Shown one piece after another: positions 7,657 through 12,918 of a DNA stretch of 34,446 nt. Under the pieces are notes generated by a model. The model worked only from the letters and a program-made list of their open reading frames with translations. It had not been told where the DNA came from and did not search any database. Source of the stretch: Candidatus Thioglobus sp. (GTDB lineage Bacteria > Pseudomonadota > Gammaproteobacteria > PS1 > Pseudothioglobaceae); assembly GCA_029936515.1 (NCBI GenBank), contig JAPYSK010000011.1:1-34446 (forward strand), read 5' to 3'. Each line of letters opens with the position of its first letter. Positions within the stretch are counted from its first letter, which is position 1. Position numbers and translations under genes: made by a program.

Positions 7657-8001
7657 ATGGGAAAACTTACTACACATATATTAGACACTACTTTGGGCTC
7701 TCCAGCTCAAAATGTAAAGATAAACTTGTACAAAAGAGAAGGCTATAATTCAGTACTAATTAACTCAGCCCAAACTAACTCAGATGGACGATGTGACGAG
7801 CCATTATTGTCTGGGATGGATTTCCATGAAGGTTGCTTTGAACTTGAGTTTGCAGTTGGTGATTACTTTGAATCTAAAAAAATTAATTGTCCCTTCTTGA
7901 AAGACGTGGTTATTCGTTTCTATATTAGCGATGGGAGTGAAAATTACCATGTACCCCTTTTAATATCACCTTATAGCTATTCGACGTATAGGGGTAGTTA
8001 G
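7657..8001 (+). CDS. hiuH: 5-hydroxyisourate hydrolase (transthyretin-like)
   Basis: Hydrolyses 5-hydroxyisourate, the PuuD product, to OHCU, the UraD substrate. At 114 residues it is the normal length and has the diagnostic residues: LTTHILDT at the N-terminus with H7, R45, H98 and the C-terminal tetrapeptide YRGS (111-114) that separates HIU hydrolases from transthyretin. AAGGAAAG precedes the ATG. There is no signal peptide, so it acts in the cytoplasm. The stop codon overlaps the GTG start of xdhA by one base. Confidence 0.95.
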   Translation: MGKLTTHILDTTLGSPAQNVKINLYKREGYNSVLINSAQTNSDGRCDEPLLSGMDFHEGCFELEFAVGDYFESKKINCPFLKDVVIRFYISDGSENYHVPLLISPYSYSTYRGS

Positions 8002-9485
8002 TGCATTTTTTATTGAATCAAAACTCAACTCCAACTACCCTAGGTGAAATAAACCCAAATATGACTGTGCTTGAATGGTTAAGGGCCAGCCAGCTTGTCG
8101 GAACTAAAGAGGGTTGCGCTTCTGGTGATTGCGGTGCTTGTACTGCAGTTGTTGGGGAGCTGACTATAAAAGATAACATCAAGGTGGTTGAGTATAAAAG
8201 TATTAATACTTGTATTGCTCTGGCATTTAGCTTGATTGGTAAACATTTAATTACTGTTGAAGGCCTAAAAGAGGGCGAGGTGTTACATCCAGTTCAAAAA
8301 GCAATGGTTATCGAAAATGGCTCTCAGTGCGGTTTCTGTACTCCAGGGTTTGTAATGTCAATGTTTGCTATGTACCACAATGAAGATACAGTCAGCCTTC
8401 CTAAAATTAATGAAGCATTGTCTGGAAACTTATGTAGATGCACAGGATATAAACCAATAATTGCTGCTGCATTTTCGGTATTTAATGAAGAAAATGAAAA
8501 GCCACTAGACTACTATCAAAAAAATCAAGAAAAAATTATAAAATCGCTAATATCTATAAATGACAATGAAAATATCAGTCTAATATTTAAAGGCGATAAA
8601 AACAATCTAAGTTATGACGCCCCATCTAACGCCGATGAGTTAGCTAATATTTTGATTAATAACGATTCTGCAAAAATAGTTGCAGCTGGCACTGATTTAA
8701 ACCTTGAGATTACCCAATCTTTAAAAGAGTTTTCTCATATTGTTAGTGTTAACGGTGTTAAGGAATTACAGGTAATTAATGACGGAGAATTTGAACTAGA
8801 AATTGGTTCCGCTGTTAGCTATCAGAAGGCAACCTCTAGTCTAGTTAAGTACTGGCCAGACCTAGAGGCTTATTTGCATCGCTTTGCTTCATTACCGATA
8901 AAAAATTGGGCCACTATTGGTGGTAACATTGCAAACGCCTCACCTATAGGCGACATGCCTCCAGTATTGATTGCCTTGGAGGCAAAATTAAAGCTTCGAA
9001 AAGAATCAAAAGTTCGCATTATTGCGTTGGAAGATTTTTTTGTAACCTACAAAAAAACGGTTCTAGAAAAGGGTGAGTTTATTGAAAGCATCATAATTCC
9101 TAAGCCCGACAAAAATGAACATTTAATAGCTCACAAAATATCAAAAAGATTTGAAGATGATATTTCAGGGGTCTGTATGGCTATAAATGTTAGATTAAAT
9201 GATGACCTTCCTAGCTCAGTGAAAATTGCACTTGGAGGGATGTCAGGTATCCCGCAAAGAGCATTGGGTTTAGAGAAAGTAACATTGGATAACTGGAATG
9301 ATGAAAACATAGCTCAATTAGCATATGGAGCCATTAAAAATGAATTCTCACCTTTTGATGATGTTAGAGCTTCCTCTGAATATCGATTAAAAGTTAGCGC
9401 AAACTTAGTAAAAAAATCTATATTAATCTTGAAAGGTGCTGCAGTTGAAAATCTTGCAGAAATTAATCAATCTAATTATTTGTAG
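8001..9485 (+). CDS. xdhA: Xanthine dehydrogenase small subunit, [2Fe-2S] and FAD domains
   Basis: Electron-transfer subunit of xanthine dehydrogenase (hypoxanthine to xanthine to urate). It starts with GTG, preceded by AGGGG. Two [2Fe-2S] domains are complete: C39, C44, C47 and C71 for the plant-ferredoxin-type cluster, and C110, C113, C145 and C147 for the second. An FAD-binding domain of the CO dehydrogenase type follows (AAGTDLNL near 229 and IGGNIANASPIGDMPP near 312). The fused arrangement and 494-residue length match bacterial XdhA. The xdhB coding region follows after a short gap and xdhC after that, so all subunits and the maturation factor are in one transcript. Confidence 0.94.
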   Translation: MHFLLNQNSTPTTLGEINPNMTVLEWLRASQLVGTKEGCASGDCGACTAVVGELTIKDNIKVVEYKSINTCIALAFSLIGKHLITVEGLKEGEVLHPVQKAMVIENGSQCGFCTPGFVMSMFAMYHNEDTVSLPKINEALSGNLCRCTGYKPIIAAAFSVFNEENEKPLDYYQKNQEKIIKSLISINDNENISLIFKGDKNNLSYDAPSNADELANILINNDSAKIVAAGTDLNLEITQSLKEFSHIVSVNGVKELQVINDGEFELEIGSAVSYQKATSSLVKYWPDLEAYLHRFASLPIKNWATIGGNIANASPIGDMPPVLIALEAKLKLRKESKVRIIALEDFFVTYKKTVLEKGEFIESIIIPKPDKNEHLIAHKISKRFEDDISGVCMAINVRLNDDLPSSVKIALGGMSGIPQRALGLEKVTLDNWNDENIAQLAYGAIKNEFSPFDDVRASSEYRLKVSANLVKKSILILKGAAVENLAEINQSNYL

Positions 9486-9522
9486 TGAGGAATAGAGAAT
9501 TATCATTAAAAACAGCAACAAT

Positions 9523-11820
9523 TTGAAGCAATCCAAAGACCCAATAATAGGCCGCTCTATTGCCCATGATAGTGCCCATATGCACGTCCAAGGAAGTGCA
9601 GCCTATATTGATGATATGAGTGTACCAGAAGGAACCCTTCACGTCGCATTTGCTTTGAGTAATGTCGCTCATGGAAAGATAAATGGTATCGATATAAAAA
9701 TCGCTAAAAAGGCTCAAGGTGTCCATAGTGTTTTGCTTGCGAAAGATATTAAACATTTAAATATTGGTCCATTAATTCATGACGAACCTATTTTAGCTAA
9801 AGATGAAGTTGTCTTTTATGGTCAGGCGATCGCAGCAGTTCTCGCAGATAGCCATGAAAATGCTCGAAAAGCAGCTGCATTAATTGAGTTTCAAATAACT
9901 GAACTTGATTCAATAGTTACTGTTGAACAAGCCATGGCTAAAAAAAGCTTTCTTGGTGAGCCTTTGGTGGTTAATACAGGTGATGCCGATAAAGCTATAA
10001 ATAAAGCTAAAAATAAACTAAATGGACGTATTACTATTGGTGGCCAGGAGCACTATTACCTAGAAGGTCAGGTTGCTTTAGCTATGCCAACTGAAGATAA
10101 CGAAATGATTGTTCATTCATCTACTCAAAACCCAACCGAAGTTCAACATCTAGTTGCGCATGTATTAGGTACCTCTCATAATGCAATTGAGGTTGTAACA
10201 AGAAGAATGGGTGGCGGCTTTGGTGGAAAAGAAACTGACTCCTCTCAATTAGCATGTGTTTGTGCTTTATTTGCTCAGCTATGCAGTCTTCCCGTTAAAG
10301 CCAGATTGTCTCGAAGGGATGACATCCTTATGACTGGGAAGCGACATGATTTTGTAGCTGACTACGAAGTGGGCTACAGTGACGACGGCAAAATCCAAGG
10401 AATTAAAATTGACCTCGCTGCAAGATGCGGCTACTCGCTTGATTTATCAAAGGCTATAGTTTCTCGCGCTCTATTTCATGCCGATAATGCATACTACATA
10501 CCTAATGCTACTTTCCGCGGTTTTTTATGCAAAACAAACACAGCTTCAAATACCGCATTTCGTGGTTTTGGTGGTCCACAGGGGATGCTCGCTATTGAAA
10601 ATATTATTGAAGAAATTGCCAGCAATCTTGGGGTAGATGCATTAACGATTAGAAAGATAAACTTTTATCAAAAAAATACAAACAACGTAACCCCTTATGA
10701 CCAAGTTGTCGAGGACAATATTATCAATGAGCTCACTAGCGAGCTTGTTGAGGATAGTAATTATTTAACTCGTCGTGAAAAAGTTGCAAAATTTAATAAA
10801 CAAAATAAATATTTAAAAAAAGGCCTAGCACTGTCCCCAGTGAAATTCGGTATTTCTTTTACAACCCCACTCTTAAATCAGGCAGGCGCACTAGTTAATG
10901 TTTATAAAGATGGAAGTATCTATATAAATCATGGTGGCACAGAGATGGGACAAGGATTATTTATTAAGGTAGCACAAGTTGTAGCTAATGAGTTTGGTGT
11001 AGAAATAGAACGAGTAAAGGTTTCTGCAACTAGCACAGCTAAAGTTCCAAATACTTCGCCAACTGCCGCGTCATCAGGTTCTGATTTGAATGGAATGGCG
11101 GCAAGAGAGGCTTGCTTAAGAATCAAACAAAATATGAGCGAATTTGCTCTTGAACATTTTGATTTAAGTATTGGTGAAATTAAATTTCAAGACTCTTGTG
11201 TTTTATTAGGCAAAAAGAAAATAACATTTGATGACTTCGTATCACTTTCGTATTTGAACCGAGTTGAACTTTTTAGTAATGGTTTCTATAAGACTCCTAA
11301 GATTTATTTTGATGCAAGTAAACAAAAAGGCCGACCTTTTTATTATTACTCCTATGGCGCTTGTGTTAGTGAGGTTTTAGTCGATTGCCTTACCGGCGAA
11401 TACAAGCTACTCGCTGTTGATATTTTGCATGATGTTGGGGCTTCTCTTAATCCGGCAATTGATATGGGTCAGATAGTTGGAGGATACATACAGGGGATGG
11501 GTTGGCTTTGCTCTGAAGAGCTTAAATGGAACGACTCTGGAGTCTTACTAACAACTGGAGCATCGACCTATAAGATACCTGCAATTGGTGATACACCTGA
11601 GCACTTTAAAGTCAAAATTAAGCCAAATATTTCAAATCATGAAAACACGATACATAAATCAAAAGCGGTTGGTGAGCCACCACTTATGCTAGCAATCTCA
11701 ACCTGGCTTGCCATAAAAAATGCTATCTACAATGCAGACAATAGTAATAAAACTGGTCTAAATGCGCCAGCTAGTTTTGAGCAAGTGTTCTTTAATCTTA
11801 ACAATAACTTAGACCAATAA
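9523..11820 (+). CDS. xdhB: Xanthine dehydrogenase large subunit, molybdopterin-binding
   Basis: Catalytic molybdenum cofactor subunit that hydroxylates hypoxanthine and xanthine. Counting from a TTG at 9523, it is 765 residues with GGGFGGKE at 230-237, NTAFRGFGGPQGM, GGTEMGQGL and the catalytic glutamate E718 in AVGEPPLMLA. No ATG or GTG fits the N-terminus: the frame is open back to a stop at 9493-9495, and the only good ribosome binding site (TGAGGA, 9486-9491) is 7 bases before an ATT at 9499. Translation may therefore begin at an AUU (9499) and add eight residues, or at the TTG, which has no ribosome binding site. The conserved domain begins at GRSIAHDSAH either way, so the protein looks functional. 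Confidence 0.92.
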   Translation: MKQSKDPIIGRSIAHDSAHMHVQGSAAYIDDMSVPEGTLHVAFALSNVAHGKINGIDIKIAKKAQGVHSVLLAKDIKHLNIGPLIHDEPILAKDEVVFYGQAIAAVLADSHENARKAAALIEFQITELDSIVTVEQAMAKKSFLGEPLVVNTGDADKAINKAKNKLNGRITIGGQEHYYLEGQVALAMPTEDNEMIVHSSTQNPTEVQHLVAHVLGTSHNAIEVVTRRMGGGFGGKETDSSQLACVCALFAQLCSLPVKARLSRRDDILMTGKRHDFVADYEVGYSDDGKIQGIKIDLAARCGYSLDLSKAIVSRALFHADNAYYIPNATFRGFLCKTNTASNTAFRGFGGPQGMLAIENIIEEIASNLGVDALTIRKINFYQKNTNNVTPYDQVVEDNIINELTSELVEDSNYLTRREKVAKFNKQNKYLKKGLALSPVKFGISFTTPLLNQAGALVNVYKDGSIYINHGGTEMGQGLFIKVAQVVANEFGVEIERVKVSATSTAKVPNTSPTAASSGSDLNGMAAREACLRIKQNMSEFALEHFDLSIGEIKFQDSCVLLGKKKITFDDFVSLSYLNRVELFSNGFYKTPKIYFDASKQKGRPFYYYSYGACVSEVLVDCLTGEYKLLAVDILHDVGASLNPAIDMGQIVGGYIQGMGWLCSEELKWNDSGVLLTTGASTYKIPAIGDTPEHFKVKIKPNISNHENTIHKSKAVGEPPLMLAISTWLAIKNAIYNADNSNKTGLNAPASFEQVFFNLNNNLDQ

Positions 11821-11823
11821 ATT

Positions 11824-12918
11824 ATGAATAGCTGGTTAAAGCCTGTAAGAAATGCTATAGCCTTAAATAACGCTTTCGTTTTGCTAACTGTGATTGAAAC
11901 TAAGGGTTCAACCCCCTGTAGCCGTGGCGATAAGATTGTTTTTGCTGGAGGGAGGTCAATTTTTGGGAGTATTGGCGGAGGTAACTTAGAATTTAAGGCT
12001 TTGGATTTTGCAGAGAACTTATTGAGCGTTAATGTCAATACAATTCATTTGGAAAAGTACCCATTAGGCGCAACACTTGGCCAGTGCTGTGGCGGTTACG
12101 TAAAAGTACTGTTTGAAAGTTTTGTTGAGGCTGATTCAAACTCTAAGAATTTGTTTTCTTGGGTTGATACTACTGCAAGCTTAATAGAAAAGAATCAAGA
12201 TTTTGTCATTGCTACATTGATTAATAAGCATTCTGAAAAGGAGCATAACTACCAAAAGTTTGTTTATTCAAATGATAACAATGTAACGTTTTCAAGTGAA
12301 AGTAAATTGCCTAAAGAAATCCATGACAGTGTCACTGATTTAATGTCATCTTCTGAGAGTCCATCTGTAATTCAATTTAACGATGAATCTGGATTAGTAA
12401 CTGAAGTTTGTCTTGAGAAGGTTGTTTGCAGTGAAATTCAGGACGTGGCAGTTTTTGGTGCAGGCCACATATCAAGAGCACTAATGTCAATAATAACAAA
12501 GCTACCTGTTAATATTTATTGGATTGACGATCGGCCTCTTCAGTTTGAGCAGTATCAGGGTGACACTTCTCAAATAAATATTATATGTGATGACTTCTCT
12601 GGAGGTCTGATAGACTTGCCAGATGATGCCTATTGTTTAGTAATTACCTATAGTCATCAAATAGATTTTGAAATATGTGAAAAGATTATTTCTAAAAATA
12701 AGTTTAGCTATTTGGGGATGATTGGATCAGCAATTAAAGGTAAAAAGTTTAGGGATAGATTTCTACAAAAAGGCTACCCAGAAAAGACAGTTGATAAATT
12801 TACATGCCCCATAGGCGAAAAACAAAAATTCTTAAAATCGCCCACTGCAATTGCTGTTACTATTGCAATGGATTTGATAAATTTTCTTGAACAAAAAAAG
12901 CAAATTGCAACTCTATGA
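11824..12918 (+). CDS. xdhC: XdhC, molybdenum cofactor sulfuration/insertion chaperone for xanthine dehydrogenase
   Basis: Binds and protects the molybdenum cofactor, promotes its sulfuration, and loads it into XdhB. The 364-residue protein has the N-terminal XdhC/CoxI domain (VIETKGSTPCSRGDKIVF, GSIGGGNLE and LGQCCGGYVKV with the conserved cysteines) and a C-terminal Rossmann domain (VAVFGAGHISRAL, then LGMIGSAIKGKKF). It starts three bases after xdhB and overlaps the next gene by ATGA. Cofactor synthesis genes are not in the window. Confidence 0.92.
   Translation: MNSWLKPVRNAIALNNAFVLLTVIETKGSTPCSRGDKIVFAGGRSIFGSIGGGNLEFKALDFAENLLSVNVNTIHLEKYPLGATLGQCCGGYVKVLFESFVEADSNSKNLFSWVDTTASLIEKNQDFVIATLINKHSEKEHNYQKFVYSNDNNVTFSSESKLPKEIHDSVTDLMSSSESPSVIQFNDESGLVTEVCLEKVVCSEIQDVAVFGAGHISRALMSIITKLPVNIYWIDDRPLQFEQYQGDTSQINIICDDFSGGLIDLPDDAYCLVITYSHQIDFEICEKIISKNKFSYLGMIGSAIKGKKFRDRFLQKGYPEKTVDKFTCPIGEKQKFLKSPTAIAVTIAMDLINFLEQKKQIATL

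Follow-up and report, generated by a model that had tools for sequence, protein, structure and literature searches.

A conserved AUU or AUC codon as the probable start of xdhB in Pseudothioglobus

Introduction

The gene xdhB, which is predicted to encode the molybdopterin-binding subunit of xanthine dehydrogenase, raises the question of where translation begins when a reading frame offers neither ATG nor GTG near its beginning. We considered this question in a stretch of 34,446 nucleotides from Candidatus Thioglobus sp. (contig JAPYSK010000011.1, assembly GCA_029936515.1), referred to here at its full length as the window, and in its relatives within Pseudothioglobus (SUP05/PS1), the genus meant throughout. 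An earlier note on this DNA reported that xdhB has no ATG or GTG between an in-frame TAG at 9493 and the conserved domain, and its letters and coordinates are right. After the TAG (9493–9495), the codons are AGA (9496), ATT (9499), ATC (9502), and ATT (9505), then AAA AAC, and neither ATG nor GTG appears ahead of the conserved HDSA segment (H at 9565). The predicted protein scored 1119.1 bits for TIGR02965 (cut-off 849.5), with the match starting at residue 19 of a 774-residue reading, and contained the domains Ald_Xan_dh_C, MoCoBD_1, and MoCoBD_2. Comparison of the xdhA–xdhB junction among relatives leads us to propose, with a probability of roughly 0.8, that translation of xdhB in Pseudothioglobus begins at a conserved AUU or AUC codon (together AUY; 9499 or 9502 in the window), and that weak initiation there is aided by a Shine-Dalgarno (SD) sequence and by the nearby xdhA stop.

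Results

We found xdhB in 18 of the 29 genus genomes searched and in 20 of 83 family genomes, the two extra ones belonging to one sister genus. The genus yielded 19 distinct junctions, representing 18 species and L027, a separately assembled contig that is 99% identical to the window. At the aligned start column these junctions had ATT (11), ATC (7), or GTG (1, L018), and the 18 AUY junctions correspond to 17 of the 18 species with xdhB plus L027. The codon alignment uses a one-codon gap in six rows, which form one tree group. Both copies from the sister genus (2/2) had ATG at the same column. In the window, the codon matching this ATG is ATC 9502, with ATT 9499 one codon earlier; two consecutive AUY codons also occur in L027, L010, and L012. 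L027 keeps ATT-ATC-ATT and has TTA in place of the window's TTG at 9523. The earlier note had allowed for a single-base change or assembly error of an original ATG, to be checked by looking for ATG at 9499 or 9502 in relatives. The alignment refutes that suggestion, the column being ATG only in the two sister-genus copies, GTG in one genus species, and AUY in all others, with the same three codons in L027.

The start column was also more constant than its surroundings. Its second base never varied and its first base varied once, while the other columns in the stretch before the domain varied more, save for an AAA-AAT pair five and six codons on. Between the end of the xdhA stop and the column lay 6–21 nt in the 17 AUY junctions that are not fused, and 1 nt in L018, with its GTG. 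Outside the genus, 79 xdhB rows were collected, and three were skipped because their matches began too far inside the gene; among the 76 scorable rows, 73 had an in-frame ATG within 60 codons upstream, three had GTG or TTG, and none (0/76) had neither. The junction gave no match in the phage collection.

In one junction, L010 (G017:C6, 10295–12604 and upstream), xdhA and xdhB form a continuous open frame (1279 codons), which in the sister species L012 is interrupted by a TAG. The joined frame is either a natural fusion gene or due to a base error in L010; if no error is involved, it suggests that a joined XdhA–XdhB chain is also tolerated in G017.

Predicted SD pairing favored the AUY codons over their canonical competitors, by which we mean in-frame ATG, GTG, and TTG. 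In the window, SD duplex energies were −6.4 kcal/mol for ATT 9499, −6.2 for ATC 9502, and +1.2 for TTG 9523, and across all 18 AUY junctions the column scored between −5.6 and −10.0 kcal/mol. We note that single values prove little because, among 815 internal in-frame ATT and ATC codons of genus xdhB that served as a yardstick, 2.8% reached −6.4 or better and 13.1% reached −5; it is the agreement across rows that counts. Twelve of the 18 AUY junctions had no canonical codon at all in the scored stretch, and the canonical codons of the other six scored from +2.2 to −2.5 kcal/mol. The earlier claim that TTG 9523 has no SD is thus upheld, and the comparison bears out its broader proposal of a rare AUU-type start directed by an SD. 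Its choice of ATT 9499 holds in part: the SD does fit 9499, with a more usual spacing than 9502, but fits ATC 9502 about equally, and 9502 is the column of the sister-genus ATG. The start in the window may be either codon.

The pattern of substitutions differed on the two sides of the column. In the ten codons upstream, changes at codon positions 1, 2, and 3 numbered 15, 16, and 11, compared with 9, 4, and 18 in the twelve codons from the column onward (Fisher p = 0.008), counted over eight row pairs whose tree paths have no common branch. With fewer pairs the values were p = 0.021 (seven pairs) and p = 0.044 (five pairs). Over the seven codons that precede the TTG column of the window, changes at the three positions numbered 4, 1, and 11. 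On a tree of 24 XdhB rows, made by a quick method from the domain part only, the 21 family rows can be explained by a single switch between canonical and AUY states, with five codon-state changes overall, and the AUY rows differ from one another just as ATT versus ATC.

Other genes bear on whether the genus can initiate at AUU. We found infC, the gene for initiation factor 3 (IF3), in 23 of 29 genus genomes, and all 23 copies read AGGAG-TA-NNN-ATT, with no in-frame ATG, GTG, or TTG within the 30 codons shown, which matches the established pattern for infC. The other gene considered as an AUU control, pcnB, was ruled out, as it had ATG (10) or GTG (1) in the 11 rows inspected of 23. The single-contig genome G028 carries an ordinary-looking initiator-type tRNA with a CAU anticodon and a GGG/CCC stem, which we take to be the defining features of initiator tRNA, and nothing odd appeared among the 30 of its 35 tRNA loci that were scanned.

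A census of starts compared 628 gene pairs in the single-contig genomes G006 and G028, over 800-kb parts (47% of the two genomes) that roughly correspond to each other. Both genomes had a canonical start in 599 pairs, and 29 pairs were flagged. Most of these were, by eye, frames opposite or beside real genes, frames in rRNA regions, mismatched paralogues, or genes with a start slightly further in. Those accepted as having no canonical start in both genomes were xdhB, infC, a dioxygenase gene, rsmD (TIGR00095), and a MORN-repeat gene. A stricter screen, for an SD-backed conserved AUH (AUU, AUC, or AUA) column with a third genome included where present, covered 582 groups and returned ten lines from eight genes: xdhB, infC (three columns), the dioxygenase gene, and five that were set aside. 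For two of these five (G028 1103834 and 838491) the AUH column lay 11–16 codons inside the gene, which we read as chance, and the other three (451331, 1057174, and 457641) had a conserved canonical codon downstream. Accepted genes with a conserved, SD-backed putative AUY start therefore number three in 582 groups, and such starts are rare in these genomes.

Discussion

Several observations weigh against an AUY start for xdhB. Apart from the start column and the AAA-AAT pair, conservation ahead of the domain is weak, and the coding signal there comes from few substitutions. Six AUY junctions contain canonical codons that are usable in principle: TTG in the window (row W), GTG in L013, L016, and L035, ATG in L034, and both ATG and TTG in L010, where the frame is also wholly open into xdhA. 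L027 has GTG and TTG codons 37–43 codons upstream, within xdhA, and SD spacing is uneven among rows (long in L013, short in L016). On the tree, support is 63% for the branch uniting all AUY rows and 92% for the placement of L018, with its GTG, beside the sister genus, so more than one switch between canonical and AUY states may have occurred.

One competitor is translation from TTG 9523, with ATT and ATC left untranslated. This TTG is the only canonical in-frame codon before the domain, and a protein begun there would be complete, given where the TIGR02965 match begins (residue 19 of 774). We consider this improbable, as the codon has no SD, its column is canonical in the window alone among 19 genus junctions (TTA even in the 99%-identical L027), and the substitution pattern upstream of it looks coding, on few events. 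A TTG start also cannot account for the 11 species that have no canonical codon in the scored stretch. Almost no weight can be given to a sequencing or assembly error, or to a decayed start in a dying gene. The window's assembly is fragmented (1.44 Mb in 83 contigs), but the AUY state recurs in 17 species, including the two single-contig genomes G006 and G028, and the xdhB frames of relatives are uninterrupted, with at least 772 codons and 77–83% identity to the window protein.

Two further alternatives would make the AUY codon either unnecessary or ordinary. If XdhA and XdhB were fused through a frameshift or stop readthrough, no start codon would be needed, and the 1279-codon frame of G017 and the shared frame of xdhA and xdhB in several rows are compatible with this. 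We regard such fusion as highly improbable. The window has xdhA in a different frame, closed at 9485, and then a stop (TAG 9493) in the frame of xdhB; L006 and its relatives carry two or three in-frame stops in the interval separating the genes; and the frame relation changes among species while SD and AUY persist. Alternatively, an altered initiation apparatus, such as an extra initiator tRNA reading AUY, might make AUU and AUC ordinary starts. AUY codons at the putative starts of several genes would fit, namely infC, xdhB, the dioxygenase-like gene (ATC in 9/23 rows, ATA in 1/23), and perhaps rsmD (16/23, with no SD). This too is very improbable, as canonical starts prevail in the census (599/628 pairs, with only three accepted SD-backed cases in 582 groups), pcnB keeps ATG or GTG (10 and 1 of the 11 rows inspected), and the tRNA loci scanned in G028 (30/35) showed nothing odd.

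For the AUY start that we favor, we propose that the SD just behind the end of xdhA would hold the 30S subunit over the AUY codon, of which just the first two bases would pair with the CAU anticodon of the initiator tRNA. Termination–reinitiation by ribosomes or subunits finishing xdhA would probably account for much of xdhB initiation, which is plausible because the xdhA stop lies so close to the column (6–21 nt, or 1 nt in L018). Short intergenic distances have been associated with coupling and with subunits of complexes (PMC10666635). IF3 is reported to exclude weak third-base codon–anticodon pairs (PMC10158994), and excess IF3 to inhibit non-canonical starts and to lower reinitiation in the reporter of that study (PMC2268962). 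From the two-base pairing, these IF3 findings, and the reporter yields measured in Staphylococcus aureus (PMC13009471), we infer that XdhB synthesis would be low, coupled to xdhA, and under IF3 control, as described for Escherichia coli infC and pcnB.

Judged by comparison across the genus, the AUY codon at the putative xdhB start is real and conserved, not an artefact, and adds xdhB to a small class of conserved AUU-, AUC-, or AUA-started genes of the infC, pcnB, cvfC1, and ccpN type. To our knowledge, conserved AUU or AUC starts are few and the known ones come mostly from model organisms. E. coli pcnB reportedly has an AUU start that limits its expression (Binns and Masters 2002, as cited in PMC13009471); xdhB resembles it in the putative AUU start but is a different gene, and Pseudothioglobus pcnB carries ATG or GTG in the 11 rows inspected of 23. 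E. coli infC, encoding IF3, starts at AUU and is under negative feedback (Sacerdot et al. 1996, as cited in PMC2268962). It shares with xdhB the AUU codon, a good SD, and the lack of a canonical start, whereas xdhB encodes an enzyme subunit, and so would have no direct self-feedback, has AUC as well as AUU, and lies right behind an upstream stop. In S. aureus, cvfC1 (AUU), ccpN (AUA), and infC (AUA) are reported to have conserved non-canonical starts with strong SDs, seen by ribosome profiling; in reporters built for three sites, expression in poor medium was about 10% of that from AUG, with ccpN reaching up to 30% in rich medium (PMC13009471). xdhB is similar in its conserved non-canonical start and SD but differs in gene and phylum, in its moderate SD, and in varying between AUU and AUC, and it is known here from sequence comparison. 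Borrelia burgdorferi pncA (BBE22) is another enzyme gene with an AUU start, missed by annotation and backed experimentally by genetics, biochemistry, and structure (PMC13398362), where the case for xdhB is comparative. Coupling to a neighboring gene, which we propose for xdhB, is not mentioned in the abstract of that study.

A probable AUY start retained in 17 of the 18 xdhB-carrying species of a marine genus, in a purine-use enzyme, suggests that weak starts may be retained as a setting outside initiation-factor genes. Since no ATG, GTG, or TTG occurs in the scored stretch, gene callers restricted to these codons must misplace the predicted XdhB start in at least 11 of 18 species. In the open-licence literature, we found no paper on start codons in Pseudothioglobus and, going by titles and the opening of abstracts, none on an xdhB start codon of this sort.

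Features of the window

The coordinates of the junction are given in Table 1. We read the neighbors of xdhA and xdhB as purine catabolism genes, with names assigned by reading the sequences and not by family tests.

Table 1. Features at the xdhA–xdhB junction and beyond it, in window positions.
Feature	Position	Strand	Remarks
xdhA, xanthine dehydrogenase small subunit	8001..9485	+	TIGR02963; start GTG, stop TAG 9483-9485
SD TGAGGA, putative, for xdhB	9486..9491	+	duplex −6.2 to −6.4 kcal/mol; SD at corresponding place in other genus junctions
TAG in xdhB frame	9493..9495	+	5' limit on xdhB start
ATT, candidate xdhB start codon	9499..9501	+	7 nt after AGGA; same place has ATT in L027, ATC in L010 and L012
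ATC, candidate xdhB start codon	9502..9504	+	aligned column is ATT/ATC in 17/18 xdhB-carrying genus species
TTG, sole canonical in-frame codon before domain	9523..9525	+	read as internal Leu codon; no SD; TTA in L027
xdhB, xanthine dehydrogenase molybdopterin-binding (large) subunit	9499..11820 if start is 9499	+	TIGR02965
Next gene, XdhC-like	11824..12918	+	ATG start; name from position and sequence reading, without family test

Other candidate genes

The dioxygenase gene (L294, G028:C1:482488) is gamma-butyrobetaine-dioxygenase-like, scoring above the cut-offs of both TIGR02409 and NF049936. Across 23 orthologous genus rows, its putative start column was ATC in nine (L294, L301, L303, L307, L309, L312, L313, L314, and L316) and ATA in one (L310), and the other 13 had ATG further upstream. 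The SDs of this gene looked AAGGGG-like by eye, with energies computed in two rows only.

RsmD methylates G966 of 16S rRNA, near the P site. Its gene (L271–L293) had an ATT or ATC column with no nearby canonical codon in 16 of 23 genus rows, ATG in four, and an upstream TTG in three. No SD was seen at the ATT or ATC. In rows from other genera, the ATC may fall where rsmD overlaps the preceding gene, and most of those inspected had a canonical codon near, often TTG one to three codons upstream. We consider rsmD a weak candidate for a further AUY gene. One could imagine AUY initiation as a small regulon in Pseudothioglobus, consisting of infC, xdhB, the gamma-butyrobetaine-dioxygenase-like gene (AUC), and possibly rsmD, through which the IF3 level, and perhaps G966 methylation, would set both initiation fidelity and the output of nitrogen-compound catabolism, but we find this doubtful.

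The MORN-repeat gene (L147, G028:C1:1158972–1159581) follows an ABC ATPase gene and, in both G028 and G006, lacked a canonical start close to its beginning. A CTG of G028 that lies behind AGGA and before a signal-peptide-like stretch would perhaps fit as its start. Two other genes differed between these genomes. A glucokinase-like gene (L142, G028:C1:1057174) had no ATG near its start in G028, where an ATT column lies behind a weak SD and a TTG lies inside, and G006 had an ATG nearby. A gene that we read as membrane-pyrophosphatase-like (L250, G028:C1:811704–813771) had ATG in G028 and AAG at the same place in G006, behind AAAGGAG.

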